58,786 bases of DNA from Collinsella sp. (GTDB taxonomy: Bacteria; Actinomycetota; Coriobacteriia; Coriobacteriales; Coriobacteriaceae): the NCBI GenBank assembly GCA_019414645.1, contig DXLP01000014.1, positions 1-58,786 on the forward strand. Reading direction: 5' to 3'. Both the position numbers and the translations under genes were made by a program. The notes below the pieces were generated by a model that saw only the letters and a program-made list of their open reading frames with translations, ran no database searches and was not told the DNA's origin. How positions within the stretch are numbered: the stretch's first letter is position 1; each line of letters opens with the position of its first letter. Below, one piece after another: positions 17,365 through 47,779 of the stretch.

Positions 17365-17530
17365 TACGCGGTTTTACCAAACCGCGTAACGGGCCGACGC
17401 TGCAAACCCACCTGAGCGGCAATCTGCCTTTCAGCTTCAGCGGCATGACCAGAAGGTCAATGCCGCTTCGCTTCAAGGCACCTTGCTCGCTCAGGTGGGT
17501 TTTCGCTGGCGTTGCCAAAGCATCGGCGTC
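17365..17530 (+). ncRNA. Structured repeat element, copy 1 (candidate RNA)
   Basis: About 165 nt with four helices: TACGCGGTTT/AAACCGCGTA (17365-17388); a long stem AAACCCACCTGAGC (17404-17417) with 17489-17502; an inner stem CAATCTGCCTT (17420-17430) with AAGGCACCTTG (17475-17485); and an apical stem AGCGGCAT-GACC closed by the loop AGAA (17439-17467, with one bulged A). Copies at 25909 and 47612 keep the fold with paired base changes. Collinsella carries a published candidate motif named Collinsella-1; from memory I cannot confirm this is it. Confidence 0.65.
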
Positions 17531-17545
17531 GCCTTGGTCCAGATG

Positions 17546-17684
17546 TGGCACTTGGGGACAGTCCTAGTCGTTGGACGTTCTTAAATGACTAGTCATCCAA
17601 GGACGTCCCCAACGACTACTCATTTAAGTACGTCCCTAATGAGTACCCAATGAGTGTGTGGGCGAGCGGATTTTCCCGCTCGCC
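17546..17684. repeat. Palindromic spacer with GTCC/GGAC repeats and a hairpin
   Basis: Positions 17552-17660 hold overlapping copies of ACGTCC, TTGGGGAC and CGACTACTCATT-like words in both orientations, with a GGGGACAGTCC core. A perfect hairpin follows, GGCGAGCGG (17661-17669) with CCGCTCGCC (17676-17684), ahead of GATTTGTGTCTTG; it may terminate weakly. I see no gene between 17361 and 17762. A related stretch lies at 47780-47815 after the third copy of the structured element. Confidence 0.5.
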
Positions 17685-17762
17685 GATTTGTGTCTTGAAA
17701 AATGTATATAACGACTATAACGTAGTGTGAAACATATTGGAAACAATACCGAGGAGGCTGCG

Positions 17763-18845
17763 TTGAAGAAAAGCAATCTGGGCTATGTGCTGGTGCTGAT
17801 CGCCGCGCTTATGTGGGGCAGCATCGGAATCTTTGTAAACGGCATCTCGGCCATGGGCGTTTCGTCCCAGAGCATGGCCGCCTTTCGCTTGTTGGTCGGA
17901 GCGCTTATCTTGGCACCGGTCCTGATGTTTATGGGCTGCCGTCCGGGTGAGGGGTCTACCGTGGCTCAGGGTCCGCTGGCCCTGTTCAAGGCAAGCCCTA
18001 AAGAGCTTGTTCCCTGCGCGCTTGTCGGTATCGTCGGTTTGGCCGCCGCCAACACCTGCTATTACGAGTGCATGGGCGAGGTGGGCATGTCCACGGCCTC
18101 GGTGCTGCTCTATACCTCGCCGGTGTTTGGCGTCGTGCTCGGCCGCGTGCTTTATCGCGAGGACGTGACCCCCAACAAGCTCGTTGCCATTGTCTTTAAC
18201 ATCGTTGGCTGTGTACTTGCAGTGACCAATGGCGACCTTTCCGGTTTCCATTTTTCGGTTTGGGGCGTCACGTCGGGCGTGATTGCAGGCCTTTGTGGTG
18301 CGTCGCTCGCGGTGTTTAGCCGAATAGCAACCAAGACGGTCCACCCGCTGGCTGTCACGTTTTGGGGTTTTGTTTTTGGCGGTGCGGTTATGGCGGCCAT
18401 CGCGGCTCCGTGGCCGGATGTCGCTGCGGCAATGTCGCCACAGCTGTTGTTGTTGTTCCTTGGCTTTGGACTCATCCCCACAGCCGTGGCCTACATCTTA
18501 TATATGCAGGGTCTGTCCATGGGGCTCGAGACGTCGAAAGTTCCCGTCGTAATGTCATTCGAGACGGTCGTCACCGTACTGGTGGGCATTGGTGTCTATG
18601 CCGAGTCCGCCGGCGCGATCAAGGTTCTGGGCATTGTGCTTGTGCTCGCATCCATCCTGATCATGAACACCGACTTCTCCAAGCTGCGCAACAGTGTGTT
18701 TGTCGGTCATGTCATTGAGAGCATGACCTTTAAGCCCAACGCGTGGTGGACCGAAAAATCTCAGGACATGGATCTGTTTAAGGAACGCACCGGCATCGCG
18801 CTGGAACCCACCGTGCAGGAAAGCCCTTGGTACTTCGTGCGATAG
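17763..18845 (+). CDS. EamA-family (DMT) transporter with C-terminal extension
   Basis: About 360 residues with ten membrane helices in two EamA repeats (residues ~1-140 and ~155-295). LMWGSIGIFVNGIS near the start and YILYMQGLSMGLE in the second half are typical. TTG 17763 is chosen because GAGGAGG lies five bases before it; GTG 17727 has no site. After the last helix there is a hydrophilic tail of about 60 residues (from FSKLRNSVFVGH to SPWYFVR) that the family normally lacks. It sits between deglycase 1 and the PTS genes, so moving the sugar-amine or the released amino acid is plausible, but DMT substrates cannot be predicted from sequence. Confidence 0.82.
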   Translation: MKKSNLGYVLVLIAALMWGSIGIFVNGISAMGVSSQSMAAFRLLVGALILAPVLMFMGCRPGEGSTVAQGPLALFKASPKELVPCALVGIVGLAAANTCYYECMGEVGMSTASVLLYTSPVFGVVLGRVLYREDVTPNKLVAIVFNIVGCVLAVTNGDLSGFHFSVWGVTSGVIAGLCGASLAVFSRIATKTVHPLAVTFWGFVFGGAVMAAIAAPWPDVAAAMSPQLLLLFLGFGLIPTAVAYILYMQGLSMGLETSKVPVVMSFETVVTVLVGIGVYAESAGAIKVLGIVLVLASILIMNTDFSKLRNSVFVGHVIESMTFKPNAWWTEKSQDMDLFKERTGIALEPTVQESPWYFVR

Positions 18846-18993
18846 AGGATTGTGTGCGGCGTCTGACCTGGGGTTATCCAGCCAGCGCCGGCCTATCCAG
18901 CCCCAACGTTTCAAGTACGTTAAACCCGTCAACGGTCGATTTTCACCCGCGAACGGTCTTTATACTAATTAGCAATATAGGCAACGTATAAGA

Positions 18994-19012
18994 CGTTATA
19001 ATGACCATAACG
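18994..19012. promoter_or_regulatory. Dyad overlapping a TATAAT box before the PTS operon
   Basis: CGTTAT (18994-18999) and ATAACG (19007-19012) are inverted arms around a 7-bp spacer, and the left arm overlaps TATAAT at 18997-19002. ATAACG also occurs twice at about 17709-17723, just before the DMT gene. This suggests a shared regulator, possibly one of the GntR proteins in the locus. No good -35 box is visible. Confidence 0.4.
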
Positions 19013-19028
19013 AAAAGGAGGAGGCAAG

Positions 19029-19952
19029 ATGAATCAGATCATTCTCGCATCTCATGGCGGCCTGGCCGCAGGCGCCAAAGACACGCTCGAGATGGTTCTC
19101 GGCGACGTGTCGAACGTCCACGTCGTGTCGCTTGCTCGTGACGACAAGGAGCCCATCACCAATAAGGTTGAGGCTATGATCGCCACGTTCAACGCGGACG
19201 ACACCGTCTATGTGCTGACCGATATGCTCGGCAGCTCGGTCAACAACAACATGGTCGAGCTTTCCAAGAACGGCACGAAGTTCACGGTTGTCAGCGGTTT
19301 CAACATTCCGTTGGCACTGACGCTCGCTATGAGCCCCGTCCCCGTCAAGGGCGCCGAGCTCGCGGCCCTCATCAACGAGGCCCGCACCGGTCTGACCAAC
19401 CCCAACGCACCGGTCGAGGCCGCCGCGGCTCCCGCCAAGAAAGCCAAGGCGTCCCGTCACAGCTCCGGTCCCGCCAAGATCGTCCTCGCACGTCTTGACT
19501 ACCGTCTGCTGCACGGCCAGGTCGTCTTTACCTGGAGCACCAAGGTTCAGGCCGAGCGCATCATCGTCGTCGACAACGCTGCCGCCAACGATGACATCAA
19601 GAAGGGCGCTCTTAAGCTGGCCAAGCCCCAGGGCGTGCGCCTGAACGTCTTCACCGTCGAGCGTGCCCTCGCCAAGATGGACAAGCTCAACACCCTCGGC
19701 GAGCGCGTCATGTTCGTCTTTGGCAACACGGCCGAGATGCTGCAGTTCTGCCAGGGCTACAAGCTCGACGCCATCAACCTGGGCGCCACCGCCAACCACG
19801 ACGGTGCCGATCAGGTCGGCGGCAAGGACAGCTCCGTCTTCCTCGACGCCACCCAGAAGGCCGACGTCAACCAGCTGCTCGACATGGGCATTAAGCTCTA
19901 TGTCCAGCAGACCCCTACGTATCAGAGCGTCGACATCGACGCCAAGCTGTAA
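19029..19952 (+). CDS. Mannose-family PTS component EIIAB
   Basis: 307 residues, a fusion of EIIA (about 1-125) and EIIB (about 148-307) through an Ala/Lys-rich linker (130-147). The EIIA phosphorylation site is H9 in LASHGGLAAG; the EIIB site is H162 in RLDYRLLHGQVV. Phosphate passes from HPr to H9, then to H162, then to the sugar as it crosses the membrane. Together with the next two genes this makes a complete mannose-type permease. Next to SIS deglycases this resembles the Salmonella gfr operon for glucoselysine and fructoselysine more than a mannose operon. GGAGGAGG precedes the ATG. Confidence 0.9.
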   Translation: MNQIILASHGGLAAGAKDTLEMVLGDVSNVHVVSLARDDKEPITNKVEAMIATFNADDTVYVLTDMLGSSVNNNMVELSKNGTKFTVVSGFNIPLALTLAMSPVPVKGAELAALINEARTGLTNPNAPVEAAAAPAKKAKASRHSSGPAKIVLARLDYRLLHGQVVFTWSTKVQAERIIVVDNAAANDDIKKGALKLAKPQGVRLNVFTVERALAKMDKLNTLGERVMFVFGNTAEMLQFCQGYKLDAINLGATANHDGADQVGGKDSSVFLDATQKADVNQLLDMGIKLYVQQTPTYQSVDIDAKL

Positions 19953-19988
19953 TCAACCAGGCTTTTGCCTGACTGAAAGGAGAAGGGT

Positions 19989-20783
19989 ATGAATACGTTC
20001 ATCAGTGCGGTGCTCGTCGGCCTCGTCGGCGTGTTCTGCATGTGGGACTCCCGCCTGCTCGGTCGTCTTAACTTCGAGCAGCCCCTCGTTGGCGCTACGC
20101 TCGTCGGTCTGCTGCTGGGCGATGTGCCCACCGGCCTTGCCGTCGGTGCCGCCGTCGAGCTCGTGTCCATGGGCCTGGTGCAGGTCGGCGCCGCCGTTCC
20201 GCCCGATATGGTCCTGGGCGGCATCGTGGCCGCTGCCTTTGCGTGCCTGACCGACGCTTCCGCCGAGACCGCCATGACGATCGCCATCCCGGTCGCCGTC
20301 CTGGGTCAGCTCCTCGGCATCGTGTTCCGTTCCATCATCGCCGTCCTCACCCATGTGGCAGATAACGCGATCGATAACGGAAAGTTCAAGACCGCCTACC
20401 GTATGCACATCTGCGCCGGCTCCGGTCTGTACGCCATCATGTACTTCCTGCCGATCTTCCTCGCCGTTTTTGTTGGCACCGACCTGGTTCAGGCCATCGT
20501 CAACATGGTTCCCGAGTGGCTGTCCACTGGTCTTAACGTTTCGACCAAGATCATGACCGCCTACGGCTTGGCCCTGCTGCTCACCATGATGATCAAGAAG
20601 GGTATGACTCCGTTCCTGTTCATCGGTTTCCTGCTCGCCGCTTACCTCAACCTGTCCGTCATCGCGGTCGCTCTGATCGGTGTGTGCCTGGCTGTCGTCT
20701 TCATGGGCTTCAAGTTCAACGGTTCCCATGCAGCCGCCGGTGTCGATTCCGACTACGATCCGCTCGAAGACGACGAAGACTAA
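19989..20783 (+). CDS. Mannose-family PTS component EIIC
   Basis: 264 residues, about eight to ten hydrophobic segments. The EIIC pattern is clear: MNTFISAVLVGLVGVF at the start, LVGATLVGLLLGDVPTGLAVGA (about 34-55), AVELVSMGLVQVGAAVPPD just after, and a short acidic C-terminus. EIIC and EIID together form the membrane channel of mannose-type permeases. It lies 36 bp after EIIAB, with AAAGGAGAAGGGT before the ATG, and 13 bp before EIID. Confidence 0.92.
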   Translation: MNTFISAVLVGLVGVFCMWDSRLLGRLNFEQPLVGATLVGLLLGDVPTGLAVGAAVELVSMGLVQVGAAVPPDMVLGGIVAAAFACLTDASAETAMTIAIPVAVLGQLLGIVFRSIIAVLTHVADNAIDNGKFKTAYRMHICAGSGLYAIMYFLPIFLAVFVGTDLVQAIVNMVPEWLSTGLNVSTKIMTAYGLALLLTMMIKKGMTPFLFIGFLLAAYLNLSVIAVALIGVCLAVVFMGFKFNGSHAAAGVDSDYDPLEDDED

Positions 20784-20796
20784 GGAGGAACACACT

Positions 20797-21630
20797 ATGG
20801 CAACCGCAACCAAGGACGTGTCCCTGAACAAGAAGGTCAGCCAGTTCTTCTGGCGCTCCTGGGCCATCCAGGCCTCTTGGAACTACGAGCGTCAGATGAA
20901 CATGGGCTTCCTCTACGGTATGGTTCCCACGCTCGATCGCCTCTATCCGGACGAGTCCGACCCCAAGCAGCTTGCTGCTAAGAAAGAGGCTTACCACCGT
21001 CACATGGCGTTCTACAACTGCACCCCGCAGACGAGCGCTTTCATCCTGGGCCTCGCCGCCTCCATGGAGGAGGAGTACGCCAAGGATCCCGAGAACTTCA
21101 ACCCCGATTCGATTAACGCGGTCAAGACCTCCCTTATGGGCCCGCTTTCCGGCATCGGTGACTCCTTCTTCCAGGGCACCATCCGCGTTATCGCCTTTGG
21201 CTTGGGCGTTCAGCTGGCTCAGCAGGGCTCCATCATGGGCCCGATCCTGGCCCTTCTCATCTCCATCGTCCCCTCCGTGCTGATTACTTGGTTCGCAGCC
21301 AAGATGGGCTATCAGGGCGGCCACGAGTACCTGAGCAAGCTTCAGGGCGGCGACCTCATGGAGAAGCTCATGTATGTCTGCGGCATCGTGGGTCTTATGT
21401 CCGTGGGCGGCATGATCGCCACGCTGATCGGCGCCACCACCCCGCTGCAGTTCGCTGAGGGCACCGTCGTTATCCAGGACATCCTGGACAGCATGATGCC
21501 CCAGATGATCTCCCTTGGCCTCACCGGCCTTATGTACTGGCTCATCAAGAAGAACGTCAACACCGGTTGGCTTCTCGTGATCGCCATTGTGGGCGGCATC
21601 GCCCTCTCCGCGGTCGGCATCCTGGCTTAG
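20797..21630 (+). CDS. Mannose-family PTS component EIID
   Basis: 277 residues. The N-terminal half is cytoplasmic and carries family landmarks: FFWRSWAIQASWNYERQM (about 15-32), GFLYGMVPTLDRLY (34-47), HMAFYNCTPQTSAFILG (about 69-85), and LMGPLSGIGDSFFQG (about 116-130). Hydrophobic segments fill the C-terminal half. ATG 20797 follows TAAGGAGGAACACACT; an ORF starting at 20680 overlaps EIIC and has no site. It completes the permease begun by the two genes upstream. Confidence 0.93.
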   Translation: MATATKDVSLNKKVSQFFWRSWAIQASWNYERQMNMGFLYGMVPTLDRLYPDESDPKQLAAKKEAYHRHMAFYNCTPQTSAFILGLAASMEEEYAKDPENFNPDSINAVKTSLMGPLSGIGDSFFQGTIRVIAFGLGVQLAQQGSIMGPILALLISIVPSVLITWFAAKMGYQGGHEYLSKLQGGDLMEKLMYVCGIVGLMSVGGMIATLIGATTPLQFAEGTVVIQDILDSMMPQMISLGLTGLMYWLIKKNVNTGWLLVIAIVGGIALSAVGILA

Positions 21631-21664
21631 TCGCGACTAAGCGCCTAACCGCTTTCCCCCGGGG

Positions 21665-21695
21665 GCCTGCCTGGCATCCCATACCCCAGGCAGGC
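21665..21695 (+). other. Hairpin between EIID and deglycase 2
   Basis: Perfect 10-bp arms GCCTGCCTGG (21665-21674) and CCAGGCAGGC (21686-21695), with no T-run. It could slow transcription or stabilise the upstream message between the PTS genes and the deglycase. Confidence 0.5.
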
Positions 21696-21708
21696 TTCCA
21701 TCCCCAAA

Positions 21709-21739
21709 ATGCGACAATGGGACAGTCCCTTTGTCGCAT
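21709..21739. repeat. REP-like palindrome with GGGACAGTCCC core
   Basis: ATGCGACAA and TTTGTCGCAT flank the loop TGGGACAGTCCC, which is itself self-complementary. The core matches the loop words in the hairpins at 15391, 22913, 25041 and 33031, although the stem is unrelated. Confidence 0.55.
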
Positions 21740-21829
21740 CCTCAACGGGCCGGCGACTCGGTCCAAACCACGGTAACCCTGCGAGCGCCCGGCAATGTGG
21801 CGCCGCAAAAATTGAAAGGAATGTGTCAG

Positions 21830-22813
21830 ATGTACGAGATCGACCTTAACCTCCCTAAGCAGATCGTCGCTGACGTCCTGTCCAACCACGAGATCCACAG
21901 CGTCGCTTTCGTCGGCTGCGGCGCCTCCATGTCCGACCTTTACCCCGCCAAGTACTTCCTGGCCAACAACACGGACAAGCTGAACGTTCAGATCTTCACT
22001 GCTAACGAGTTCAACTACGACACGCCTTCCTGGGTCAACGAGCACACCTTCGTGATCACCTGCTCCCTCGGTGGCTCCACGCCCGAGACCGTCGAGGCCA
22101 ACAAGACCGCCAAGAAGCACAACTGCCCGGTCGTCTCCCTCACCAACAAGGCTGGCTCCGCTCTGACCGTCGACGCTGACTACGTCATCGTTCACGGCTT
22201 CCACGCCAACTTCGCTGCCAAGTGCGAGAAGCCCGGCTACGCCATCGCTCTTGCTGTCGAGATCCTTCAGCAGACCGAGGGCTATGACCACTACGAGGAC
22301 ATGATCACCGGCCTCACCAACGTCTTCGATCTCTGCGAGAACGCTGCTCAGTCCTGCAAGAAGCTCGCCAAGAAGTTCGCCGAGGACTTCAAGGACGACA
22401 AGATGATCTACTTCATGGCTTCCGGTGCCTCCGAGAAGATGGCTTATTCTCACGCCGCCTTCCTGTTCACCGAGATGCAGTGGATCGACGCCGCCGCCTA
22501 CAACACCGGTGAGTACTTCCACGGCCCGTTCGAGGTTTCCACCGAGGGTAAGCCCTACGTCTTCTTCATGTCCGATGGCGCTACCCGTCCGATGGACGCC
22601 CGCGCCCTCACCTTCCTTAAGCGCATGGGCGCCAAGGTCGCTCTGATCGACTCCAAGGACTACGGCCTGGCTGACGCCGTGCCCGCGAGCGTCGTCACCT
22701 ACTTCAACCCGCTGCTGCACCTCGCCGTTATGCGCGAGTACGGCAACCAGATCGCCGAGGCCCGTCAGCACCCGCTGACCATGCGTCGCTACATGTGGAA
22801 GCTTTCCTACTAA
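21830..22813 (+). CDS. SIS-domain deglycase, FrlB/GfrE-like (copy 2)
   Basis: 327 residues with the same two-SIS layout as the other copies: VGCGASMSDLYPAKYF (28-43), CSLGGSTPETV (78-88), and the catalytic pair E215 and H231 in TEMQWID and TGEYFHGPFE. ATG 21830 follows GAAAGGA nine bases upstream; an ATG three codons earlier is too close to that site. It is the last gene of the PTS operon and is followed by a strong terminator. With the PTS it should act on the 6-phosphate of the imported Amadori compound. Which copy takes fructoselysine-6-P and which glucoselysine-6-P cannot be told by eye. Confidence 0.82.
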   Translation: MYEIDLNLPKQIVADVLSNHEIHSVAFVGCGASMSDLYPAKYFLANNTDKLNVQIFTANEFNYDTPSWVNEHTFVITCSLGGSTPETVEANKTAKKHNCPVVSLTNKAGSALTVDADYVIVHGFHANFAAKCEKPGYAIALAVEILQQTEGYDHYEDMITGLTNVFDLCENAAQSCKKLAKKFAEDFKDDKMIYFMASGASEKMAYSHAAFLFTEMQWIDAAAYNTGEYFHGPFEVSTEGKPYVFFMSDGATRPMDARALTFLKRMGAKVALIDSKDYGLADAVPASVVTYFNPLLHLAVMREYGNQIAEARQHPLTMRRYMWKLSY

Positions 22814-22846
22814 TCACAAGTAAGTAGACCTTACGGGTTGATTGAG

Positions 22847-22878
22847 AGGGGATGGGGTTTGCGCCCCGTCCCCTTTTT
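22847..22878 (+). terminator. Terminator of the PTS/deglycase operon
   Basis: Arms AGGGGATGGGG (22847-22857) and CCCCGTCCCCT (22864-22874) pair over 11 bp with one G-U, followed by a run of five T. Confidence 0.88.
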
Positions 22879-22912
22879 GCTTTGGGGGCGTGTCTGTCGC
22901 GTCGCAAAACAC

Positions 22913-22955
22913 CAGATAAAACCTACCAAAATAAACCTGTCCCTTTTTGGCAGGT
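22913..22955 (+). repeat. CCTACCAAAA hairpin family, copy 1
   Basis: Stem ACCTACCAAAA (22921-22931) with TTTTGGCAGGT (22945-22955), one mismatch, and loop containing AAACCTGTCCC, preceded by CAGATAAA. Copies are at 25041-25090 (+) and 33031-33082 (-). Each is read in the same sense as the gene immediately downstream. Here its right arm runs straight into the GGGAGGAG ribosome site of the HAD gene. Confidence 0.7.
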
Positions 22956-22969
22956 GGGAGGAGATGCGT

Positions 22970-23599
22970 ATGATCAAGGCAGTGCTGTTTGATATGGACG
23001 GCGTGCTGGTCGATACCGAGTGGTTCTACAACCGTCGCCGCGTGGCGTTTATGGAGGAAAAGGGGTTCCACTTTGACGAGATCCCCGATCTTTCGGGGTC
23101 TAACGAGCCTGCCATCTGGAAGTCGCTGGTGCCCGACGATGTTGAGCTGCGCGAGCGCTTGCGCGTTGAGTACAAGCAGGTCTACAGCCCGGTTCACCCT
23201 GTTCCGTATGCCGAGCTGCTCAACGAGCAGACGGAGCCGGTGATGCGCGAGCTGCACGAGCGCGGCGTCAAGTGTGCCATCGCGAGCTCGTCCTATCGCG
23301 AGCTTATTGACGAGCTGGTGGAGATTGCCGGTATCGCCGACGTGCTGGACTACACCATCAGTGGTCACGAGTGCAGCGCGTTTAAGCCCGACCCCGAGAT
23401 CTACCTGCGCGCCATGGAGGCGCTGGGGGTGGAGCCTGCCGAGTGCCTGGTTATCGAGGATTCGCCTTTGGGCATCGAGGCCGGCAAGCGCTCCGGCGCC
23501 CGCGTCCTGGCGCTGCGTCCGCACGAGGGTGTCAATCTGGATCAGTCCGCCGCCGACGTTGTCATCGACAACCTGACCGACATTTTGGCCGCTTTGTAG
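22970..23599 (+). CDS. HAD-family phosphatase, beta-phosphoglucomutase-like
   Basis: 209 residues. Motif I is LFDMDGVLVDTEWF (nucleophile Asp 8 and acid/base Asp 10), motif II is the serine in CAIASSSYRELI (about 100-111), motif III lysine is in SAFKPDPEIYLRA (about 141-153), and motif IV is VIEDSPLGIEAGKRSG (about 164-179). This is the subfamily of DhaG/YcjU-type phosphatases and beta-phosphoglucomutases acting on sugar phosphates. ATG 22970 has GGAGG eight bases upstream; ATG 22964 is too close. It lies behind the terminator of the PTS operon, so any role in sugar-amine breakdown is only suggested by position. Confidence 0.85.
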   Translation: MIKAVLFDMDGVLVDTEWFYNRRRVAFMEEKGFHFDEIPDLSGSNEPAIWKSLVPDDVELRERLRVEYKQVYSPVHPVPYAELLNEQTEPVMRELHERGVKCAIASSSYRELIDELVEIAGIADVLDYTISGHECSAFKPDPEIYLRAMEALGVEPAECLVIEDSPLGIEAGKRSGARVLALRPHEGVNLDQSAADVVIDNLTDILAAL

Positions 23600-23954
23600 T
23601 GTCAATCCGCCGCGAGAAGCACGGGTTCAAACGTTTTTTGCGGTGGACTGGCTCAATTTGGTTTCGATTTTGATCCGTTTGGCTTCGATTCGGGCTAAGT
23701 GAGTAGACTTTTTGGCGCAGGCCGAGCACAAAGTGCATCTGCTCTAGTAAAACCGCAGGTCACAGAGGTGGCTGTTTTGGGTGTGCTCGGCAGATCGTAA
23801 AAAGTCTACTCACTTGGAATTTAGCCCTTTGGTCGTGGGGGTTGCTGGTCCCGTTTTGGTTGTCGAGAGAGGGTGAATTGAAGCGCCCCCGCACGCTCCA
23901 TGCTACAATCGCGGGCATGCCCCACAACTACATCTGCCTTCGAAGGGAGCCTAC
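23600..23954. other. Intergenic region with a long inverted repeat
   Basis: I see no gene here. The main content is the inverted repeat at 23697-23815 (listed separately). Before it, 23640-23690 is a GT-rich stretch with TTCGATT words repeated. The ribosome site AAGGGAG of the YitT gene is at 23942-23948. Confidence 0.5.
23697..23815. repeat. MITE-like inverted repeat, 17-bp outer and 9-bp inner arms
   Basis: Outer arms AAGTGAGTAGACTTTTT (23697-23713) and its exact complement (23799-23815); inner arms CCGAGCACA (23722-23730) and TGTGCTCGG (23782-23790). The flanks GGGCTAA and TTAGCCC extend the symmetry. It encodes nothing. A fragment, AAGTAAGTAGACC, lies at 22818-22830. Confidence 0.65.
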
Positions 23955-24962: not shown

Positions 24963-25003
24963 GGTATTGGCATTTTGCCGGCCCGGCGTGATCCTGCCCG
25001 CTT

Positions 25004-25039
25004 GAGCCCCGCGAAAGCCTCGTTGCTTTCGAGGGGCTC
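25004..25039 (+). terminator. Stem-loop after the YitT gene
   Basis: GAGCCCC (25004-25010) pairs with GGGGCTC (25033-25039), and inside it GAAAGC pairs with GCTTTC. CGTTT follows, so termination is plausible but the T-run is short. Confidence 0.55.
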
Positions 25040-25040
25040 T

Positions 25041-25902: not shown

Positions 25903-25908
25903 CTCTAG

Positions 25909-26074
25909 TTGCGCGGTTTTCCAAACCGCGCAACGGCTCGACGCTGCAAGCCCGCCAGAGCGGCAATCTGCCTTTCAACTTCGGCGGCATGATCAGAAGA
26001 TCAATGCCGCCTTGTTTCAAGGCATCTTGCTCGCTCTGGCGGGCTTTCGCTGACATTGCCAAAACATCGACTAC
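25909..26074 (+). ncRNA. Structured repeat element, copy 2 (candidate RNA)
   Basis: Same fold as the copies at 17365 and 47612. First hairpin TTGCGCGGTTT/AAACCGCGCAA (25909-25933); long stem AAGCCCGCCAGAGC (25948-25961) with GCTCTGGCGGGCTT (26033-26046); inner stem CAATCTGCCTT with AAGGCATCTTG; apical stem GGCGGCAT-GATC, loop AGAA, then GATC, a bulged A and ATGCCGCC. Against copy 1, A-T pairs become G-C and the reverse on both sides of several helices. Confidence 0.65.
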
Positions 26075-26080
26075 CCGCAG

Positions 26081-26179
26081 AATGAGCGTGGATAATCTCC
26101 CGTTTTTGGCTCAACGGCGTGCTCAAAGTGGGAGATTATCCACGCTCATCCGGAAAGTGTCCAAAAATCCACGCTCATT
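26081..26179. repeat. ATGAGCGTGGAT inverted-repeat family, locus 1
   Basis: A perfect 20-bp inverted repeat, ATGAGCGTGGATAATCTCCC (26082-26101) with its complement at 26130-26149, followed by a third arm AAAATCCACGCTCATT (26164-26179). The same arm word recurs three times at 37326-37422. Confidence 0.65.
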
Positions 26180-26275
26180 CGCCTTGGATTGCGTTGCCCG
26201 TGGCCGGCAGCCGCGCGGCACCGGTCCGCGTGGCGGCGTATAATCGGCGGCAGATGACTTGGACGTTAGGAAACC

Positions 26276-28255: not shown

Positions 28256-28257
28256 CG

Positions 28258-30126: not shown

Positions 30127-30177
30127 GTAACGGGAAAAGCATTCACCTTCGATTCGCGAGCGTGTCGCATGAGCCAA

Positions 30178-30217
30178 AAAGCGGGCCGTGCCGGGGATTT
30201 CCGGCGCGGCCCGCTTT
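30178..30217. terminator. Bidirectional terminator between convergent genes
   Basis: A 17-bp stem (30178-30194 with 30201-30217, one G-U pair) bounded by AAA and TTT, with loop GGATTT. It separates deglycase 3 from the dehydrogenase read from the other strand. Confidence 0.82.
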
Positions 30218-30259
30218 GCATAGCGTCCGTATGAGCGAGGTGTCGCGTCAAGCGGCGGC

Positions 30260-40923: not shown

Positions 40924-41045
40924 CGTATTTGGCTTTGGCATTCTTTGACAATCGTGTTGTTTGATCGGATCGCGTGGCGATGCAATATCGCGCCCACCCG
41001 CCGGTGCATGCTCTTCCTGATTTGTATAGCGAGAGGGGAGCGTGT

Positions 41046-41330
41046 ATGAGCTGGCGAGGCGATATTGCGATGGGGAAGTACGGAAAACTGCCGTGTGCCC
41101 TTATAGACAACAATATGTTTCCGAGCGTAGAGGTTGATTGCGGGTCGTTTGTCGTCACCTGCCCTTGCTGCGGCTCGCAAATACCGTGTCTCGACATTCG
41201 GTTCATCGATGCGCGCGACAGACTCAGCGACGAAGTGAGAAAACGGACGGGCGTTCATATGCCGGTGTATCCGGAGAAATGCCCTGTTTGTGGCCTCGAT
41301 ATCGTGTACGACGCCGGCGACGAGGGATAG
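41046..41330 (+). CDS. Small zinc-ribbon protein, unknown function
   Basis: 94 residues. Two CxxC-type pairs, TCPCCGSQIPC (about 37-47) and EKCPVCGLDIVYD (about 78-90), are spaced like a zinc ribbon with a 30-residue insert. I know no family. ATG 41046 is preceded by GAGAGGGGAGCG, which supports a real start. It follows the HNH gene by 122 bp in the same direction and may be its partner. Confidence 0.65.
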   Translation: MSWRGDIAMGKYGKLPCALIDNNMFPSVEVDCGSFVVTCPCCGSQIPCLDIRFIDARDRLSDEVRKRTGVHMPVYPEKCPVCGLDIVYDAGDEG

Positions 41331-41367
41331 GTGATGCGGAGGAGTTGGCTGTGAGTGTCTTTTGCCT

Positions 41368-42054
41368 CTACAAATAAACCCCCTCACCGAGTTGCCTGTG
41401 GAACTCGGCGTGATGGTCGCGTGCCCAGGTAAAGAGCGCCTGGTCAAAGTCGGTACGCGTGGCCGGGACGCCAAAGACGCCGGCAACTTCGACGCGTATA
41501 AACTCCAGTGCCGGCAGCTTGTTGATGGCAGTGAGGGCAAACGGGGACGAGGGCTCCTCGAACAGATAGCGGCTGCCTTGCAGCGCGTCGCAACTGGTGC
41601 ACGTGTTGCCGAGCGACGGGGCTTTGGAGGCTCGCGCGCCTACGGGCTTGTAGCCGCAGCGCTTAGAAAGGTAGTCACGGATCTCGCCCGGCACGCAGCC
41701 AAGAGCGGGCACGATGGCGAGTGCGTTGGCGTTGACCGTGTCGATGGCAATGTGCCCGGCTTCGTTGGGCGCGTGCGCGATTACGATGCTCTCGTCGTTA
41801 TCGGCTCGATAGGGAATGCCGAAGGCCGCGACCGGGGTCTCTTTGTGACACTTCCAGCACTCGCGCTTGCCCAGTACTAGATATATATACGGCGCTGAGG
41901 GGTCGGATCGGTCAACACCGGGCAGCCACTCGGCAAAGGGCTCGGGGTTGACGCCGCTGGGTACATACCAGATCTTCTTGGTCCGGTCCCATTTGGCGCC
42001 CAGCGCCTTGGCTTCTTCTTTGTGCGAAAAGGGGACATCGAGCTCGGTGCGCAT
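41368..42054 (-). CDS. DUF5710-like protein with CxxC pairs
   Basis: 228 residues. The N-terminus reads LDVPFSHKEEAKALGAKWD then KKIWYVPSGVNPEPFAEWL (residues 4-43), the motif of DUF5710, a small domain found at the ends of mobile-element and nucleic-acid proteins. ECWKCHKETPV (about 64-74) and NTCTSCDAL (about 150-158) may bind zinc. The ~150-residue remainder is not recognised. The start at 42054 has AAGGAG five bases upstream on the minus strand; a longer frame to 42327 is low-complexity and lacks a site. Confidence 0.7.
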   Translation of the reverse strand: MRTELDVPFSHKEEAKALGAKWDRTKKIWYVPSGVNPEPFAEWLPGVDRSDPSAPYIYLVLGKRECWKCHKETPVAAFGIPYRADNDESIVIAHAPNEAGHIAIDTVNANALAIVPALGCVPGEIRDYLSKRCGYKPVGARASKAPSLGNTCTSCDALQGSRYLFEEPSSPFALTAINKLPALEFIRVEVAGVFGVPATRTDFDQALFTWARDHHAEFHRQLGEGVYL

Positions 42055-42302
42055 GGCGGCTCCTTGGTGCTGCAGGTGCAAGTGACTCAAGGATACCGCA
42101 GGGTGTGGACGTTGTGGCGTTTTGCCGAGAAGCTGCGGCTCAGATGGGTTCGAGACGCGTTGGTCTCGGCCTCGGTGGCTATTGGGGCGGTTTTGATTGA
42201 CTGCGGGGTCAGCCGGGATAGGCGCTTGGGTCGCTGACGCGGTTTTGCGCATGGGCGGGGTGGTTGTTTGGGCGGTTGGAGCTGCCAGCGGATTTGGCGA
42301 CA

Positions 42303-42340
42303 TAAAACAAAACAGCCCAGAGGACATAGCCTCTGAGCTG
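42303..42340 (-). terminator. Terminator of the tRNA-Val gene
   Basis: On the minus strand CAGCTCAGAGG and CCTCTGGGCTG pair over 11 bp with one G-U, loop CTATGT, followed by TTTTGTTTT. It starts nine bases after the tRNA 3' end. Confidence 0.85.
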
Positions 42341-42348
42341 CGAACATT

Positions 42349-42423
42349 TGGTGGGCGTTAGAAGATTTGAACTTCTGACCTCTTCCGTGTCAGGGAAGCG
42401 CTCTCCCCCTGAGCTAAACGCCC
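42349..42423 (-). tRNA. tRNA-Val (anticodon GAC)
   Basis: Read on the minus strand, the acceptor arm GGGCGTT pairs with AACGCCC and CCA is encoded. The anticodon stem CTTCC/GGAAG closes the loop CTGACAC, giving anticodon GAC, which reads GTC/GTT valine codons. The T-arm AGAAGTTCAAATCTTCT is intact. Length is 75 nt with CCA. Confidence 0.95.
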
Positions 42424-42452
42424 GATCAAGGGTGCGCAAGCGCGCAAGGGAT

Positions 42453-42481
42453 AATATAACGGAGCCTGAACTCGGTGGCAA
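42453..42481 (-). promoter_or_regulatory. Promoter of the tRNA-Val gene
   Basis: On the minus strand, TTGCCA (42476-42481) and TATATT (42453-42458) are exactly 17 bases apart, 29 bases upstream of the tRNA 5' end. Confidence 0.7.
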
Positions 42482-42712
42482 GAACATTTTTAAAAATCGC
42501 TTACATTGTGGAATTCGGGGGCTTTGGCGTATCCATCTCAAAAGAGCCTGCTGCCGCGATTTGGCTGTCGCATAATGCAAGGCCATTGCGGTATCGAGCT
42601 ATGGAAAGACGCCTGCGGAATTGTCCTACCGATAAGCGGACAAGCCTCCAGCTGATGACTTCGCCGTGGTAAGGTAAGCCGAATTGTTTCCAGGCTGTTT
42701 CGGGGGAGTGGA

Positions 42713-43735
42713 ATGAGCAAAGAGTGTGTCGAGCAGGTCGAAGGCGCAGGGGCTTCGGTGCCGATGACCGATATATCGAACATTGATGTGCCCGAGGGCA
42801 CCGACGAGCTCAGCCGTAGCACCCGCCGCGCCTGGCGCGAGCGCCTTAACGATGCGTCGTCGCGCAAGATGATCACGGGCGTCTTGGCTACGCTGGTGGG
42901 CGGTTCGTTTTGGGGCTTCTCGGGCACCAGCGCGAGCTTTCTGTTCGATACCTACCACGTCGACACCTTGTGGCTTATGAGCGTACGTCAGATTCTCGCC
43001 GGTCTACTCTTTATGGCCGTGGTTGTTACGCGCGACCGCGAGCGCCTGATTAAGCTCTGGACCACACCCGCCGATCGCAAGCAGCTGCTGCTCTTTACCG
43101 CCTTTGGCCTGCTGTTCAACCAGTTTTGCTATCTTTCGGCCGTGCGCCTGACGAACGCCGGAACCGCGACGGTGCTCCAGTGCCTGCAGCTCGTTATCAT
43201 CATGGGCTACACCTGCGTGATCGATCGCCGCATGCCACGTACTCGCGAAGTCATCGGCATTGGCCTAGCTCTGGGTGGAACCTTTTTAATCGCCACCGGC
43301 GGCGACCCCACCAGCCTGAATATCTCGCCGCTTGGCCTGGCAGCAGGTCTTATGTGTGCGGTCAGCGCCGCGTGTATGGCGGTGATTCCCGCCAAGATCC
43401 TGCCCGAATACGGTAGCCCCATCGTCACGGGCTCGGCAATGCTCACGGCGGGCGTGGTTTCATGTGTCTTCGTGCGGCCCTGGGCGCATATGCCGGCGCT
43501 CGACGCTGCCGGCATCGAGGCGCTCGCGGTGTTCGTGGTTATCGGCTCGTTTTTTGCTTACATGCTTTATATGCAGGGCGTTAAGGACATCGGCTCGGTG
43601 CGCGCGAGCCTCATCGGAACTGTGGAGCCGGTTTCGGCGACTATCACCAGCGCCGTTATGCTGGGCACGGTGTTTTTGCCGACCGACCTTATCGGCTTTG
43701 CCATGATCATCGTGATGATGTTCCTCACGGTGTAG
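42713..43735 (+). CDS. EamA-family (DMT) transporter
   Basis: 340 residues. A hydrophilic N-terminus of about 55 residues precedes ten membrane helices in two EamA repeats (about 56-190 and 205-340). Landmarks are LVGGSFWGFSGTSASFL (about 62-78), RQILAGLLFMAVVV, LTNAGTATVLQCLQLVII in the first repeat and YMLYMQGVKDIG plus GTVEPVSATITSAVML in the second. The substrate is unknown. GGGGGAG precedes the ATG. It stands between a tRNA on the other strand and the DUF4012 gene, with no operon partner evident. Confidence 0.85.
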   Translation: MSKECVEQVEGAGASVPMTDISNIDVPEGTDELSRSTRRAWRERLNDASSRKMITGVLATLVGGSFWGFSGTSASFLFDTYHVDTLWLMSVRQILAGLLFMAVVVTRDRERLIKLWTTPADRKQLLLFTAFGLLFNQFCYLSAVRLTNAGTATVLQCLQLVIIMGYTCVIDRRMPRTREVIGIGLALGGTFLIATGGDPTSLNISPLGLAAGLMCAVSAACMAVIPAKILPEYGSPIVTGSAMLTAGVVSCVFVRPWAHMPALDAAGIEALAVFVVIGSFFAYMLYMQGVKDIGSVRASLIGTVEPVSATITSAVMLGTVFLPTDLIGFAMIIVMMFLTV

Positions 43736-43884
43736 CTGGCGCCGCCGCCAAGACAGAAAAGGTGTTGTGCCGCATTTTCGCCAATTGACGTCCGTGTCTG
43801 GAGTTTAGCTGTCGATGCCCAAAATGCCATAAACTAGTAACGTTATGGACTTTTTCATTGCGACTCAATTGCGAGGATTTCTTT

Positions 43885-46197
43885 ATGGCTGGTAATCACT
43901 TTAAGGGCAGCGATAGCGGCCGTCCTGCAGTTCCGCCGCGTCCGAACGGGGCTGGTAAGGCCGGCACGCCGGGCGGCGCTGGACAGGGCGGTTCCGGTAA
44001 GCGCGTGTCCCCGGGCGAGACGGCGATGTTTACCGCTCTGTACGAGCAGTCTCAAAAGGCAAAAAAGACCGGCCGTGCAAGAGGGAATGTCTTTGCGGGC
44101 GGTGCAACCTCCGCGTCGCAGCCGATCGGGGCTCCTTCGGTACCCGCGAACAACGCGGGTGCTGCCAACGCCGCGAATGCCGCCGGCAACGTTAATGCCG
44201 GCAAGGCCGCCAACAATACTCCCTCTGCCGGTGGCGCGGGGCTTACGGGTAACCTTGGCACGATTTACACCGGCGCCTCCGAGACTGGCACGTTCGCCCG
44301 CCTGGATGATAGCGGTGCCGAGTTTGCGGGCTCGGGTTCCAAGGAAGATTATTACGATTTTGGCTTGAACTACGGTAGCGACGCTTCGTCGAGTTCGACC
44401 TCTGACGGTCTGGTCCGTCATCGTCATCGCAAGGGCGAGCGCAAAAAGCGTCACACCGGCGCCATTATTGCCGCTGTAGTCGCGGTGCTTCTCGTTGCGC
44501 TTGGCGCAAGCGGCTTTATGCTGCTTAACTCGGCAAAGACCGTAAAGAGCGAAGCGAAGGAGGCTGTCGAGATCGTCGGTGGCCTTAAGGACAAGGTCAC
44601 GTCGGGCGATTTTTCGACGCTGCCTGACGACGCGAAGAAGATCGATGAGCTCTGTAACAGCATGAAGGCGAAGACCTCGAGCCCGCTGTGGGCGGCGGCT
44701 TCGTTTATCCCGGTGTATGGCAGCGATATCAATGCGGCCCGCACCATGATCGACGCCCTGTCCGATGTCTCGAGCAATGCGCTGGTTCCCATGGCCGATA
44801 ACCTTTCGCAGGCTACGCCCGGCAAGCTGTTCCAGGACGGCATGATTAACGTGTCCGCGCTGCAGGCGGTCGCCGATTCGCTTTCCAGCAGCTCGAAGGT
44901 GTTCAAGAGCGCCAACGAGAAGGTCCAGGGCATTGGCGATACTCATATTTCCCAGGTGACCGAGCTGGTCGATAAGGCCAAGGACGGCTTTGCCACCCTC
45001 AACGGTGCGGTTGACGCGGCGGAGAAGGTCGCCCCCGTCCTCCCCCAGATGCTCGGCGCCAACGGCCAGACGCGCAACTACCTTGTGTACGCCATGAACA
45101 ACGTCGAGATTCGTGCTTGCGGCGGCTTTGGCGGTTCGCAGGGCCTGATTTCGGTCACCGACGGCCAGATGTCGATTGGCGAGTTTGTTCCCCGCATTGG
45201 ACTCAGCGAGGATGAGGCAGTCGAGAGCGTCGACGAAGAGGATGAGGCGCTGTTCGGCAACCACAGCAACCTGTACAACTCGGGCAATACCTATTCGCCT
45301 GATTGGCCCCGCAACTCGCAGCGTGTCGCCGCGCTGTGGAAGTCCCAGTATGGGCAGGACGTTGACGGCGTCGTGGGTATCGACCCGGTGTTCCTGCAGT
45401 ATCTGCTGGGCCTGGTCGGTAACGTGTCGCTGCCCGACGGAACGGTTGTCGACGGCACCAACGCCGCAAAGGTCCTCATGCACGATGTGTACTGGAACTA
45501 TCCGGTCGAGGAGTCGGACGGCATCTTTGCATCCGTTGCCAGCGCTGCCTTCGACAAGATTCTCGGTGGCATCGGTGACGTCGACGTTACAAAGCTTGTC
45601 GGTGCATTCGAGCGCGGTGCCGAAGAGGGCCGTCTGATTGCTTGGATGAGAAACGATGATGAGCAGAATGCCATCAAAGAGACGGGCATTGACGCCTCGC
45701 TGCCCGATCCGGATGATCCGAGTGCCGATCCCGTTGCCGGCGTTTACTTTAACAACCTGAGCTTTTCCAAGCTCGACTGGTATCTGAACGCCGACACGCA
45801 GATTGGCCAGGGCGTGAAGAACGGCGACGGCACGTGTTCCTATCGCATCACCGTTACCCTGACGAACATCATGACGCAGGAGGAGGCCGGCAAGCTGCCC
45901 GACTACGTCGCGGCGAGCGCGCCCGATGCCGCGCGCGACGACGAGCGTCTGAATGTCTCACTGTTTGCCCCGACGGGCGGCAACATCAGTGACCTTACGG
46001 TTGAGGGCACCCAGTTTGGTCTTGGCGCCGCTACGTGGCATGGAATCCCCTTCTATTCGGGTACCGTTGACCTGCATGCTGGCGAGACGACGACGATCAC
46101 GTATACGCTGACCACGTCGGCCGAGGCGGGGGACAAGCCGCTTACACTGCGTCAGACTCCTACATGCCAGGCGGCTCGCGACAGCGCGTCGGCGTAG
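43885..46197 (+). CDS. DUF4012-type membrane-anchored protein
   Basis: 770 residues. A long disordered N-terminus rich in Gly, Ala and Asn (about 1-190) leads to a basic patch (RHRHRKGERKKRH) and one membrane helix (about 198-218, IIAAVVAVLLVALGASGFML). The extracytoplasmic part follows, with a helical region and then LVYAMNNVEIRACGGFGGSQ (about 403-422), the signature region of DUF4012 proteins, which are thought to be surface or polysaccharide-associated factors. The cytoplasmic disordered arm is unusually long. ATG 43885 follows GAGGATTTCTTT. It is 83 bp ahead of glmM, but a perfect hairpin separates them. Confidence 0.8.
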   Translation: MAGNHFKGSDSGRPAVPPRPNGAGKAGTPGGAGQGGSGKRVSPGETAMFTALYEQSQKAKKTGRARGNVFAGGATSASQPIGAPSVPANNAGAANAANAAGNVNAGKAANNTPSAGGAGLTGNLGTIYTGASETGTFARLDDSGAEFAGSGSKEDYYDFGLNYGSDASSSSTSDGLVRHRHRKGERKKRHTGAIIAAVVAVLLVALGASGFMLLNSAKTVKSEAKEAVEIVGGLKDKVTSGDFSTLPDDAKKIDELCNSMKAKTSSPLWAAASFIPVYGSDINAARTMIDALSDVSSNALVPMADNLSQATPGKLFQDGMINVSALQAVADSLSSSSKVFKSANEKVQGIGDTHISQVTELVDKAKDGFATLNGAVDAAEKVAPVLPQMLGANGQTRNYLVYAMNNVEIRACGGFGGSQGLISVTDGQMSIGEFVPRIGLSEDEAVESVDEEDEALFGNHSNLYNSGNTYSPDWPRNSQRVAALWKSQYGQDVDGVVGIDPVFLQYLLGLVGNVSLPDGTVVDGTNAAKVLMHDVYWNYPVEESDGIFASVASAAFDKILGGIGDVDVTKLVGAFERGAEEGRLIAWMRNDDEQNAIKETGIDASLPDPDDPSADPVAGVYFNNLSFSKLDWYLNADTQIGQGVKNGDGTCSYRITVTLTNIMTQEEAGKLPDYVAASAPDAARDDERLNVSLFAPTGGNISDLTVEGTQFGLGAATWHGIPFYSGTVDLHAGETTTITYTLTTSAEAGDKPLTLRQTPTCQAARDSASA

Positions 46198-46234
46198 GGT
46201 TTTTCTGGTAGCGCAGATAATCGAGTACCATTTT

Positions 46235-46266
46235 GGGGCGGACAGGCAATCTGTCCGCCCCTATTT
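46235..46266 (+). terminator. Terminator between the DUF4012 gene and glmM
   Basis: GGGGCGGACAG (46235-46245) and CTGTCCGCCCC (46251-46261) form a perfect 11-bp stem followed by TATTTT. Only 15 bases separate it from the glmM ATG, so it could also affect glmM translation. Confidence 0.75.
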
Positions 46267-46280
46267 TGTAAGGAGAGCGC

Positions 46281-47612
46281 ATGAAGTACTTTGGCACCGA
46301 CGGCTTTCGCGGTGAGGCCAACGTTGGGCTGACGGTAGAGCACGCTTATAAGATTGGCCGTTTTGTGGGCTGGTATTACGGCGCCAACCGCAGTGCTAAG
46401 GCGCGCGTCATCGTGGGCAAGGACACGCGTCGCTCGAGCTATATGTTTGAGGCGGCGCTGGTGAGCGGCCTGGTCGCGAGCGGCGCGGACGCCTACATGC
46501 TGCACGTGATCCCGACGCCGGGCGTGGCGCATCAGACCGTGGAGGGCTGCTTCGATTGCGGCATCATGATCAGTGCGAGCCACAACCCGTTTTGCGATAA
46601 CGGCATTAAGCTCGTCAACAGCGATGGCTTTAAGATGGACGAGGACGTGCTGGAGCTCATCGAGGACTACATCGATGGCAAGAGCGAAGTTCCGCTGGCC
46701 ACGGGCAACCACATCGGTGCCACGGTGGACTACATGCAGGGCCGCAACCGCTACATTGCTTCGCTCATCGCCAGCGCGAACTTTTCGCTGCAGGGCGTCA
46801 AGATCGGTATTGACTGCGCCAACGGCTCGGCTTCCTCGGTGGCCAAGCCGGTGTTTGACGCGCTGGGCGCCGACGTGCGCGTGATCAATGCCGCGCCTGA
46901 TGGTTTTAACATCAACGTCGACTGCGGCTCCACGCATATGGAGCGCCTACAACGCCACGTGGTGGAGCAGGGCCTGGACGTGGGCTTTGCCTACGACGGC
47001 GATGCCGACCGCTGCCTGGCCGTGGATGAGCGCGGTCGCATGGTAGACGGCGACCAGATCCTGTACGTGTGCGGCGTGTATCTGAACAAGCACGGGCGAC
47101 TCTCGGGCGGTACCGTGGTGCCGACGATTGCCAGCAACTTTGGCCTGGTCAAGTCGCTGGAGCTTGCCGGTCTGAGCGCCGTGACCAGCGGCGTGGGCGA
47201 CCGTCACGTGTATGCCAAGATGCGCGAGGGCGGCTACAGCTTGGGCGGCGAGCAGACGGGCCATACGATCTTTGGCGATATCGAGCGCACGGGCGACGGC
47301 ATTATGACTTCGCTGCGCGTGATGGAAGTGATTCGTGCCGAGCGCGAGACGCTCTCGCAGCTCACGGCTCCGTGCAAGCTGCTGCCGCAGGCGCAGGTGG
47401 CCGTGCACGTGGCGGACAAGGACGCCGCGCTCGAGAACATGGGCGTGCAGAACGCCATCGCCGAGGCCGAGGCCGCGCTGGCAGGCGAGGGCCGCGTACT
47501 GGTGCGCAAGAGCGGAACCGAGTCGGTGATCCGCGTTTTGGCCGAAGCCCCCGACCAAGCCGCCGCCGACGCCGCCATGAAGCGCATCGCAAGCGCTCTG
47601 GAAGCTTTTTAG
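46281..47612 (+). CDS. glmM: Phosphoglucosamine mutase
   Basis: 443 residues, the usual length. FGTDGFRGEAN (4-14), the phosphoserine loop ISASHNPFCDNGIK with catalytic S100, the metal loop DGDADR (about 240-245), the sugar loop GGEQTGH (about 321-327) and the C-terminal phosphate loop RKSGTESVIRV (about 410-420) are all present. It interconverts glucosamine 6- and 1-phosphate for peptidoglycan precursors. ATG 46281 follows TAAGGAGAGCGC. The next structured repeat begins on the last base of its stop codon. Confidence 0.93.
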   Translation: MKYFGTDGFRGEANVGLTVEHAYKIGRFVGWYYGANRSAKARVIVGKDTRRSSYMFEAALVSGLVASGADAYMLHVIPTPGVAHQTVEGCFDCGIMISASHNPFCDNGIKLVNSDGFKMDEDVLELIEDYIDGKSEVPLATGNHIGATVDYMQGRNRYIASLIASANFSLQGVKIGIDCANGSASSVAKPVFDALGADVRVINAAPDGFNINVDCGSTHMERLQRHVVEQGLDVGFAYDGDADRCLAVDERGRMVDGDQILYVCGVYLNKHGRLSGGTVVPTIASNFGLVKSLELAGLSAVTSGVGDRHVYAKMREGGYSLGGEQTGHTIFGDIERTGDGIMTSLRVMEVIRAERETLSQLTAPCKLLPQAQVAVHVADKDAALENMGVQNAIAEAEAALAGEGRVLVRKSGTESVIRVLAEAPDQAAADAAMKRIASALEAF

Positions 47613-47779
47613 TTACGCGGTTTTACCAAACCGCGTAACTGCTCGACGCTGCAAACGGCCCCAAGCGGCAGTCTGACGTTCAATTTCAAGGGCGCGACCA
47701 GAAGGTCAGCGCCCTTTCATTTCACGTCACCTTGCTCGCTTAGGGTCGTTTTCGCTGACGTTGCCAAGACATTAGCGTC
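47612..47779 (+). ncRNA. Structured repeat element, copy 3 (candidate RNA)
   Basis: First hairpin GTTACGCGGTTT/AAACCGCGTAAC (47612-47639), whose first base is the last base of the glmM stop. Long stem AAACGGCCCCAAGC (47653-47666) with GCTTAGGGTCGTTT (47738-47751); inner stem CAGTCTGACGT (47669-47679) with ACGTCACCTTG (47724-47734); apical stem AGGGCGC-GACC, loop AGAA, GGTC, bulged A, GCGCCCT. The inner stem has changed from TGCC/GGCA to TGAC/GTCA on both strands relative to copies 1 and 2. Confidence 0.65.

Follow-up and report, generated by a model that had tools for sequence, protein, structure and literature searches.

We analyzed a 58,786-nt stretch of Collinsella sp. (assembly GCA_019414645.1, contig DXLP01000014.1, positions 1 to 58,786 of the forward strand; hereafter the window), in which a structured element had been predicted to occur three times. 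The three copies lie where that prediction placed them (window positions ~17365, 25909, and 47612), and scanning the window with a covariance model of the element (R1, built from 21 copies, the window copies among them) returned no further strong copies. The genes that precede them encode, in order, a protein with a SIS domain (domain search), a protein with GntR and UTRA domains (a GntR repressor in the earlier description), and a protein with all four PGM_PMM domains expected of GlmM, as glmM had been assigned. Each copy begins 0–6 nt after the stop codon of its gene, as proposed (Table 1).

The element consists of a hairpin (M1), the tetranucleotide GACG, a rod (M2), and a short tail. M1 is a 27–28-nt hairpin of ~12 bp, GTTACGCGGTTTTACCAAACCGCGTAAC and variants in which the arms are changed on both sides (ACGCGG, ACGGCG, CCGCCG). 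Approximately 5 nt after M1 comes GACGCTGC, the start of M2, a 112-nt rod composed of four paired segments, two 2x2 internal loops (TTCA opposite TTCA and ATCT opposite AYCT), a bulge of one base, and a terminal loop of roughly NNAA; its 3' end is TCGCT, behind which a tail such as GACGTTGCCAAAACATCGGCG is often present. Folding of 186-nt stretches holding copies 1, 2, and 3 gave z-scores of -10.0, -8.9, and -9.4, and for each copy 0 of 200 dinucleotide shuffles folded as well as the real sequence. The paired changes described for the inner stem (TGCC/GGCA to TGAC/GTCA in copy 3) and the apical stem (GACC/GGTC to GATC/GATC) are both present. The matching partners claimed for the long stem are incomplete in copy 3, where the pairing of CGGCCCCAAGC with GCTTAGGGTCG includes one G-U and one C-A position. 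Constancy of the AGAA loop and of the bulged A holds within the window; elsewhere the loop has roughly the form NNAA, and the bulged base is A or T.

Table 1. Positions of the parts of the element, and of one neighboring hairpin, in the window. R1 scores are those of members of the model's own training set.
Feature	Position	Strand	Remarks and basis
M1 hairpin, copy 1	17363..17390	+	2 nt after TAA of SIS-domain gene; sequence, fold, M1 search
M2 rod, copy 1, subfamily A	17396..17507	+	R1 129.7 bits; fold
Tail, copy 1, GGCGTTGCCAAAGCATCGGCGTCGC	17508..17532	+	Sequence, alignment of copies
M1 hairpin, copy 2	25908..25934	+	5 nt after TAG of GntR/UTRA gene; sequence, fold, M1 search
M2 rod, copy 2, subfamily A	25940..26051	+	R1 130.9 bits; fold
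Tail, copy 2, GACATTGCCAAAACATCGA	26052..26070	+	Sequence, alignment of copies
M1 hairpin, copy 3	47612..47639	+	First G is third base of glmM stop TAG (0 nt spacing); sequence, fold, M1 search
M2 rod, copy 3, C-like subfamily, imperfect outer stem	47645..47756	+	R1 117.9 bits; fold
Tail, copy 3	47757..47784	+	Similar tail directly after M1 at glmM of genome G001 (L391)
Terminator-like hairpin after copy 3 (A-run, GC stem, TTT)	47815..47861	+	Sequence by eye

Several M2 subfamilies exist, between which most stem letters differ; a rough motif sort of 76 distinct copies assigned 31 to subfamily A, 26 to B, 10 to C, 8 to D, and 1 to none of these. The two modules also occur apart, M1 without M2 at two loci (L390 and L391; G and L numbers are our handles for genomes and loci) and M2 without M1 at three (L213, L216, and L224). 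A pattern for M1 matched 22 times in G001, 27 each in G005 and G006, 24 in G022, and once, with a mismatch, in G042, and the reversed control pattern matched 0 times. The family is a modular, non-coding, dispersed palindromic repeat of Coriobacteriales.

A repeat family anchored at stop codons

A covariance search, of the kind that the original prediction had called for, found R1 matches in 33 of 43 genomes of the genus (E<=1e-4), and 21 of the 43 hold 23–39 matches each, some of them on the reverse strand. Searching with copy 2 by blastn gave 29, 35, 34, and 22 matches in G001 and the genomes of three C. aerofaciens records, counts that include the palindrome's reverse-strand self-matches and separate pieces; counted by place, M2 occupies 31 sites in G001 (46 matches) and 28 in G006 (41 matches). 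Across the order, R1 matched in 71 of 297 genomes and 20 of 107 genera (E<=0.001, 12 candidates scored per genome, some matches weak), with up to 17 matches in genomes of another family. In a phylum sample scanned with stricter filters, 8 of 396 genomes matched, all of G001's family (E<=1e-5, 9 candidates scored per genome); those of the order's other families that matched at the looser limit were missed or not drawn. A 23-base apical pattern of the element had no exact match in any viral contig, and its one match among plasmid records is a 900-kb circular C. aerofaciens replicon. Within the window, one weak antisense match to the M2 model (30172-30227, 22.6 bits, E 0.005) is probably due to chance.

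Placement of these copies relative to genes is narrow. At 26 of the 31 G001 sites a same-strand stop codon lies no more than 50 nt upstream of M2, at a distance of 31–37 nt in 18 cases, -18 to 7 nt in 6, and 18 and 46 nt in the other 2. Copies of the 31–37-nt class carry M1 in between, starting ~0–6 nt after the stop codon, and those of the -18 to 7 class lack M1. Copies from other genera behave in the same manner: 27 of 35 (39 fetched, minus L159, L170, L176, and L177, which lie too near contig ends) have a stop codon within this range, 18 at 31–37 nt, 8 at -18 to 7 nt, and 1 at 26 nt. The corresponding control count on the 3' side was 5 of 31 in G001 and 5 of 35 in other genera, loosely spread. 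The M2 stretch of some distant copies itself contains the stop codon (L180, L173, and, by eye, L167). Two copies follow tRNA genes on the same strand at much the same spacing, 41 nt after tRNA-Ser (L166) and 37 nt after tRNA-Gln (L172). Three genera have a copy at one and the same gene end (L152, L156, and L162), behind similar proteins ending AMVFTG-RHFRH that we take to be PurH. The repeat family is real, anchored at stop codons, and present in several families of the order.

Three further observations concern individual placements. The outer stem of M2 at L173, L167, and L180 extends over the host gene's stop codon and final codons, and at L173 and L167 the 3' arm of M2 is complementary, by eye, to coding sequence. 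At L228 and L093 the copies stand behind short stretches ending ...VKVPK/N-stop, not behind a long gene. The idea that the element serves convergent genes as a bidirectional terminator was dropped: of the 31 G001 sites, 17 have a codirectional downstream gene and 14 an opposite one, which shows no clear bias; the count rests on a crude choice of open reading frames, and two of the 14 opposite genes are the insertion sequence (IS) described below.

Turnover and terminators at matching gene ends

We compared 28 of the 31 G001 sites with relatives (no upstream gene was found for L228, L232, and L237) and found matching places for 26 sites each in G006, G005, and G022, and for 13 in the outgroup G042; orthology is doubtful for L210 in G006, where the flank differs, and for L223 in G005 (79% identity, 113 of 130 bases). 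Behind the same stop codon, M1 variants and M2 subfamilies often differ from species to species. Some copies are nested, the M2 apical loop being broken by a further M1-M2 (the L127 site in G022 and the L227 site in G006), and other sites in relatives have shrunk to M1 or a fragment. The L215 site in G006 holds a chimeric M2 with unmatched arms, which speaks against strict arm matching. Behind glmM, the element is full in the window and at L001, reduced to M1 and a short M2 fragment at L003, reduced to M1 and the tail in G001 (L391), and absent at L002. At L391, M2 is missing exactly between GACG repeats, a state that may represent either an empty site or a deletion; the GACG is not a varying target duplication, because it is nearly constant 5' of M2. 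A suggestive TA duplication at L219 had no counterpart at glmM and was discarded.

The element is itself a target for transposition. An IS with inverted ends ATATGACCCAATCCG and CGGATTGGGTCAT (L094, L370-L378), whose 373-aa transposase carries DEDD_Tnp_IS110 and Transposase_20 domains, is inserted at the 3' base of M2, behind TTTCGCT or a similar sequence. Of the eight ends of this IS that were located (3 in G001, 4 in G022, 1 in G005, and 0 in G006 and G042), six adjoin M2, which is complete in five cases and a remnant in the sixth; of the other two, one follows a terminator-like hairpin and one lies elsewhere. A public C. aerofaciens record, the table of which covers protein genes only, shows the order tyrS, element, and annotated IS110 family transposase. 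An IS110-type IS thus uses the element as its target.

Applying one caller to all pairs of site and genome, we searched for a hairpin with a T-run within 200 nt behind the element at occupied sites or behind the stop codon at element-free ones. The comparison comprises 24 of the 28 sites (L229, L236, L238, and L239 were left out) and excludes six IS-carrying pairs; seven remnant pairs, of which 4 have a terminator, were kept apart. A terminator was present in 24 of 72 occupied and 18 of 22 element-free pairs (Fisher p = 7e-5, for pairs that share sites and are not independent). For G005, G006, and G022 alone, the figures were 17 of 50 and 9 of 11, and the element-free pairs of G042 likewise had a terminator in 9 of 11, the two scored without one (L211 and L233) showing one by eye. 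Where two genomes carry the element at the L216 site, between the stop codon and a common downstream repeat, two others carry a terminator. Of the sites left out, L238 has a terminator without M2 in G006, G005, and G042, and L239 has no terminator in any of the five genomes. Behind glmM, a terminator-like hairpin is present in the window (full element) and at L002 (no element), L003, and L391, and absent from the read stretch of L001 (full element). Many Collinsella M2 copies contain a terminator-like hairpin of their own, chief among them those of subfamily B, which have a TTTTT run after the apical hairpin; no U-tract follows directly after M1 in the sequence, and none was evident by eye in most distant M2 copies. 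At many genes, though not all, the element stands in for a terminator, in agreement with the 3'-end or terminator role first suggested for it.

Paired changes compared with an RNA control

The pairing of the element was assessed in an alignment not fitted to the structure (A2) and in two fitted to the model (A3 and A4; A3 has 34 rows, one of them an antisense match). In A2, double changes occur at 22 of 42 pairs, and 96.9% of cells pair; the paired share falls to 84.2% after column shuffling and to no more than 42% when the pairing is slid. A fitted alignment of 33 distinct distant copies has double changes across genera at 37 of 42 pairs, with a covariation score of 0.649, compared with 0.182 when shuffled and at most 0.099 when slid. 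The pairing is therefore under strong constraint, and the claim of a conserved shape with compensatory changes at gene 3' ends stands.

The further claim that this covariation points to selection on an RNA is not supported. Mispaired cells in the 76 distinct copies comprise 29 G-U, 50 A-C, and 58 others; counted as distinct one-step departures, they are 16 G-U and 24 A-C (19 and 22 within subfamilies), and the distant set has 41 and 50 cells, respectively. As a control we used the signal recognition particle (SRP) RNA of genomes of the same bacterial family, likewise a rod with internal loops, for which 10 distinct sequences from 26 of 30 fetched loci gave 33 G-U and 2 A-C cells. The tolerance of G-U over A-C seen in this functional RNA is absent from the element by cells (p = 2e-9, for cells that are not independent); by distinct events (16:24 versus 4:1) the difference is not significant (p = 0.16). 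In addition, fold prediction gives the antisense strand the greater stability in 52 of 55 alignment rows, which amounts to one common feature and not 52 independent ones, and which we think arises because the TC/TC loops read GA/GA on that strand. The lack of a G-U excess over A-C, in contrast to SRP RNA, speaks for upkeep at the level of DNA and against selection acting on the sense RNA alone. Since the element is a dispersed repeat, copying of subfamilies accounts for much of the covariation between copies. The sense RNA is thus probably not the main thing whose pairing is kept, and the folded DNA form, or arm-to-arm copying, is the better reading; the fixed internal loops suggest that something recognizes the shape.

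Known repeats, mobilization, and the role of the element

The original prediction raised the possibility that the element is the candidate RNA Collinsella-1 (RF01700), which is listed for human-gut Actinobacteria (Weinberg 2010; PMC2864571). The listing among human-gut Actinobacteria is the shared point. The identification is not supported: at gathering score, the Rfam 15 families yield only a tRNA in the window, and a search at E<=10 covering copy 2 and L108 returned other families, all below gathering score, and not RF01700. The strongest of these, mir-789 to L108 (E 0.0003, 30.9 bits versus 100 required), we take as a chance match to a long hairpin. A full-text literature search on repeats, miniature inverted-repeat transposable elements, RNA motifs, and terminators of Collinsella and Coriobacteria found no title or abstract describing the element; the 250 palindromic candidates of a 2021 microbiome RNA survey (PMC8040213) may include it.

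Closer parallels are found among bacterial palindromic repeats. Enterobacterial repetitive intergenic consensus (ERIC)-like elements are imperfect palindromes of ~120–130 bp, intergenic and present or absent between strains. By this general description the present family resembles them on each of these points, and it differs in having two separable modules, in its anchoring to stop codons, and in its clade. With repetitive extragenic palindromes (REP) and the bacterial interspersed mosaic elements (BIME), it shares the many dispersed palindromes in 3' intergenic DNA, the modular mosaics, and the role of IS target; some of the IS that target REP are of IS110 type. REP are hairpins of 20–40 nt, whereas M2 forms a rod of 112 nt in which the internal loops are fixed, and the spacing from the stop codon is rigid. 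The use of REP palindromes as insertion sequence targets has been described previously (Tobes & Pareja 2006; PMC1525189). Our elements are dispersed intergenic palindromes at gene 3' ends, as are REP and BIME, and they rarely flank genes for REP-associated tyrosine transposases (RAYT; Y1 family), M2 occurring at 1 of 39 Y1 loci (~3.3 kb scanned each). An intrinsic terminator also places a hairpin behind the stop codon, and the element often stands where relatives have one; the element differs in its far larger rod, in the lack of a U-tract at M1 and most distant M2 copies, and in being dispersed copies of one family. Integron attC sites were rejected by eye: M1 runs GTT...AAC, and no attC core boxes were seen in M2. 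The family is of the broad REP/BIME/ERIC kind and distinct in anatomy and placement.

That M1 and M2 are REP-like sequences moved by resident Y1 transposases appears improbable, even though the co-occurrence is strong: a Y1_Tnp match is present in all 33 genomes of the genus with an M2 match (E<=1e-4) and in 4 of the 10 without, and many Y1 frames are of RAYT size (250–350 codons). The association by genome is confounded by phylogeny, and G019, which lacks a Y1 match, has one weak M2 match at a looser limit (E<=0.001). The single Y1 locus with an M2 match (L182, at 1236-1345) holds it ~150 nt before a Y1 frame that is short and, by score, IS200-like, and different palindromes, several with a GGGAC or GTCCC core, stand behind many RAYT genes. 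RAYT is accordingly a weak candidate, its locus evidence being mostly adverse. Several distinct RAYT-like proteins (~250–350 codons, some with a helix-turn-helix-like end; L112-L120, L188-L209) occur together in single Collinsella genomes. One kind of the palindromes that stand behind RAYT genes also follows many elements. In the window, repeat units of TAGTCATTGGGGACGTTC type follow copies 1 and 3 (within 17555-17640 and at 47787-47815); because palindromes with a GGGAC or GTCCC core also stand behind RAYT genes in relatives, these units may be the REP family of Collinsella RAYT. A different repeat, GATAATCTCCC...GGGAGATTATC, follows copy 2 (26083-26185).

We favor, at a probability of about 0.55, the view that the element is a dispersed repeat that spreads as DNA and is kept for 3'-end formation or protection in the 3' untranslated region (UTR). 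It builds on the observed copy number, differences between species at single sites, stop-codon placement, covarying stems with fixed loops, and use as an IS target. Copies would spread and be replaced as DNA, the folded DNA hairpin being recognized or recombined. As part of the transcribed 3' UTR, they would form or protect the transcript's 3' end, freeing the gene of its own intrinsic terminator, and may be kept for this. The hairpins could block 3'-to-5' exonucleases after Rho-dependent or weak intrinsic termination, with the 2x2 internal loops preventing the rod from acting as one long substrate for RNase III or SbcCD. Judged from sequence comparison, 3'-end formation or protection, often in replacement of a terminator, is the most likely host role.

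Several points weigh against this reading. The mobilizer was not found, and no autonomous partner with the same ends was noticed in the loci read, among which only the Y1 family was searched systematically. None of the compared sites showed an insertion flanked by a varying target duplication, which means that loss or gene conversion may explain part of the variation. One third of occupied pairs keep a U-tract terminator, as does glmM in the window, and at L238 M2 and a terminator coexist in G001 and G022; the compared pairs share sites, and 11 of the 22 element-free ones come from the single genome G042. On the side of pairing, A2 has 36 standard pair types against a shuffle mean of 37.9, which is no excess, the contrast with SRP RNA loses significance by events, and the low count of G-U may be due in part to copies that are young and not under selection.

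Much of the same evidence can be read in other ways. A cis-acting element of the sense mRNA, such as a terminator, a stability element, or a processed small RNA whose shape selection preserves, would account for the mostly sense-side placement right after stop codons and the two same-strand tRNA genes, for the strong covariation, for the terminator-like hairpins inside many M2 copies, and for the scarcity of terminators at occupied sites. We consider it unlikely, as the sense hairpin is the weaker strand in nearly all alignment rows, G-U is not favored over A-C by cells, events, or distant copies, and M1 and most distant M2 copies lack a long U-tract. A purely selfish repeat is a possibility we hold with some doubt: template-switch correction and a mobilizer's need for a hairpin would keep the arms matched, and the stop-codon position would reflect least harm or the enzyme's aim, with no function for the host. 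The differences between species at one site, the nesting and the chimera, the many double changes with few one-sided ones, the lack of G-U excess, and the IS110-type IS all fit such a repeat. Template-switch correction, however, would erase the internal loops, yet TTCA/TTCA and ATCT/AYCT are kept in most copies across genera; avoidance of harm alone predicts loose distances and both orientations rather than a one-sided 31–37 nt, and occupied sites have fewer terminators.

A bolder form of the spreading 3'-end repeat that we favor, which we advance tentatively, is a mobile module for 3' ends, in which a DNA-hairpin element inserts at stop codons, replaces the intrinsic terminator, and is swapped between genes and species by a hairpin-recognizing enzyme. 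For work on structured RNAs, the family illustrates that compensatory changes among repeat copies need not signal a functional RNA, and counting G-U against A-C mispairs is a simple test that covariation screens could use. If the module is real, a bacterial order would possess movable, interchangeable transcript ends, and a mobilization system would recognize a folded palindrome and aim at stop codons. Dozens of genes in a common gut genus would then receive their ends from interchangeable repeats and not from gene-specific terminators.

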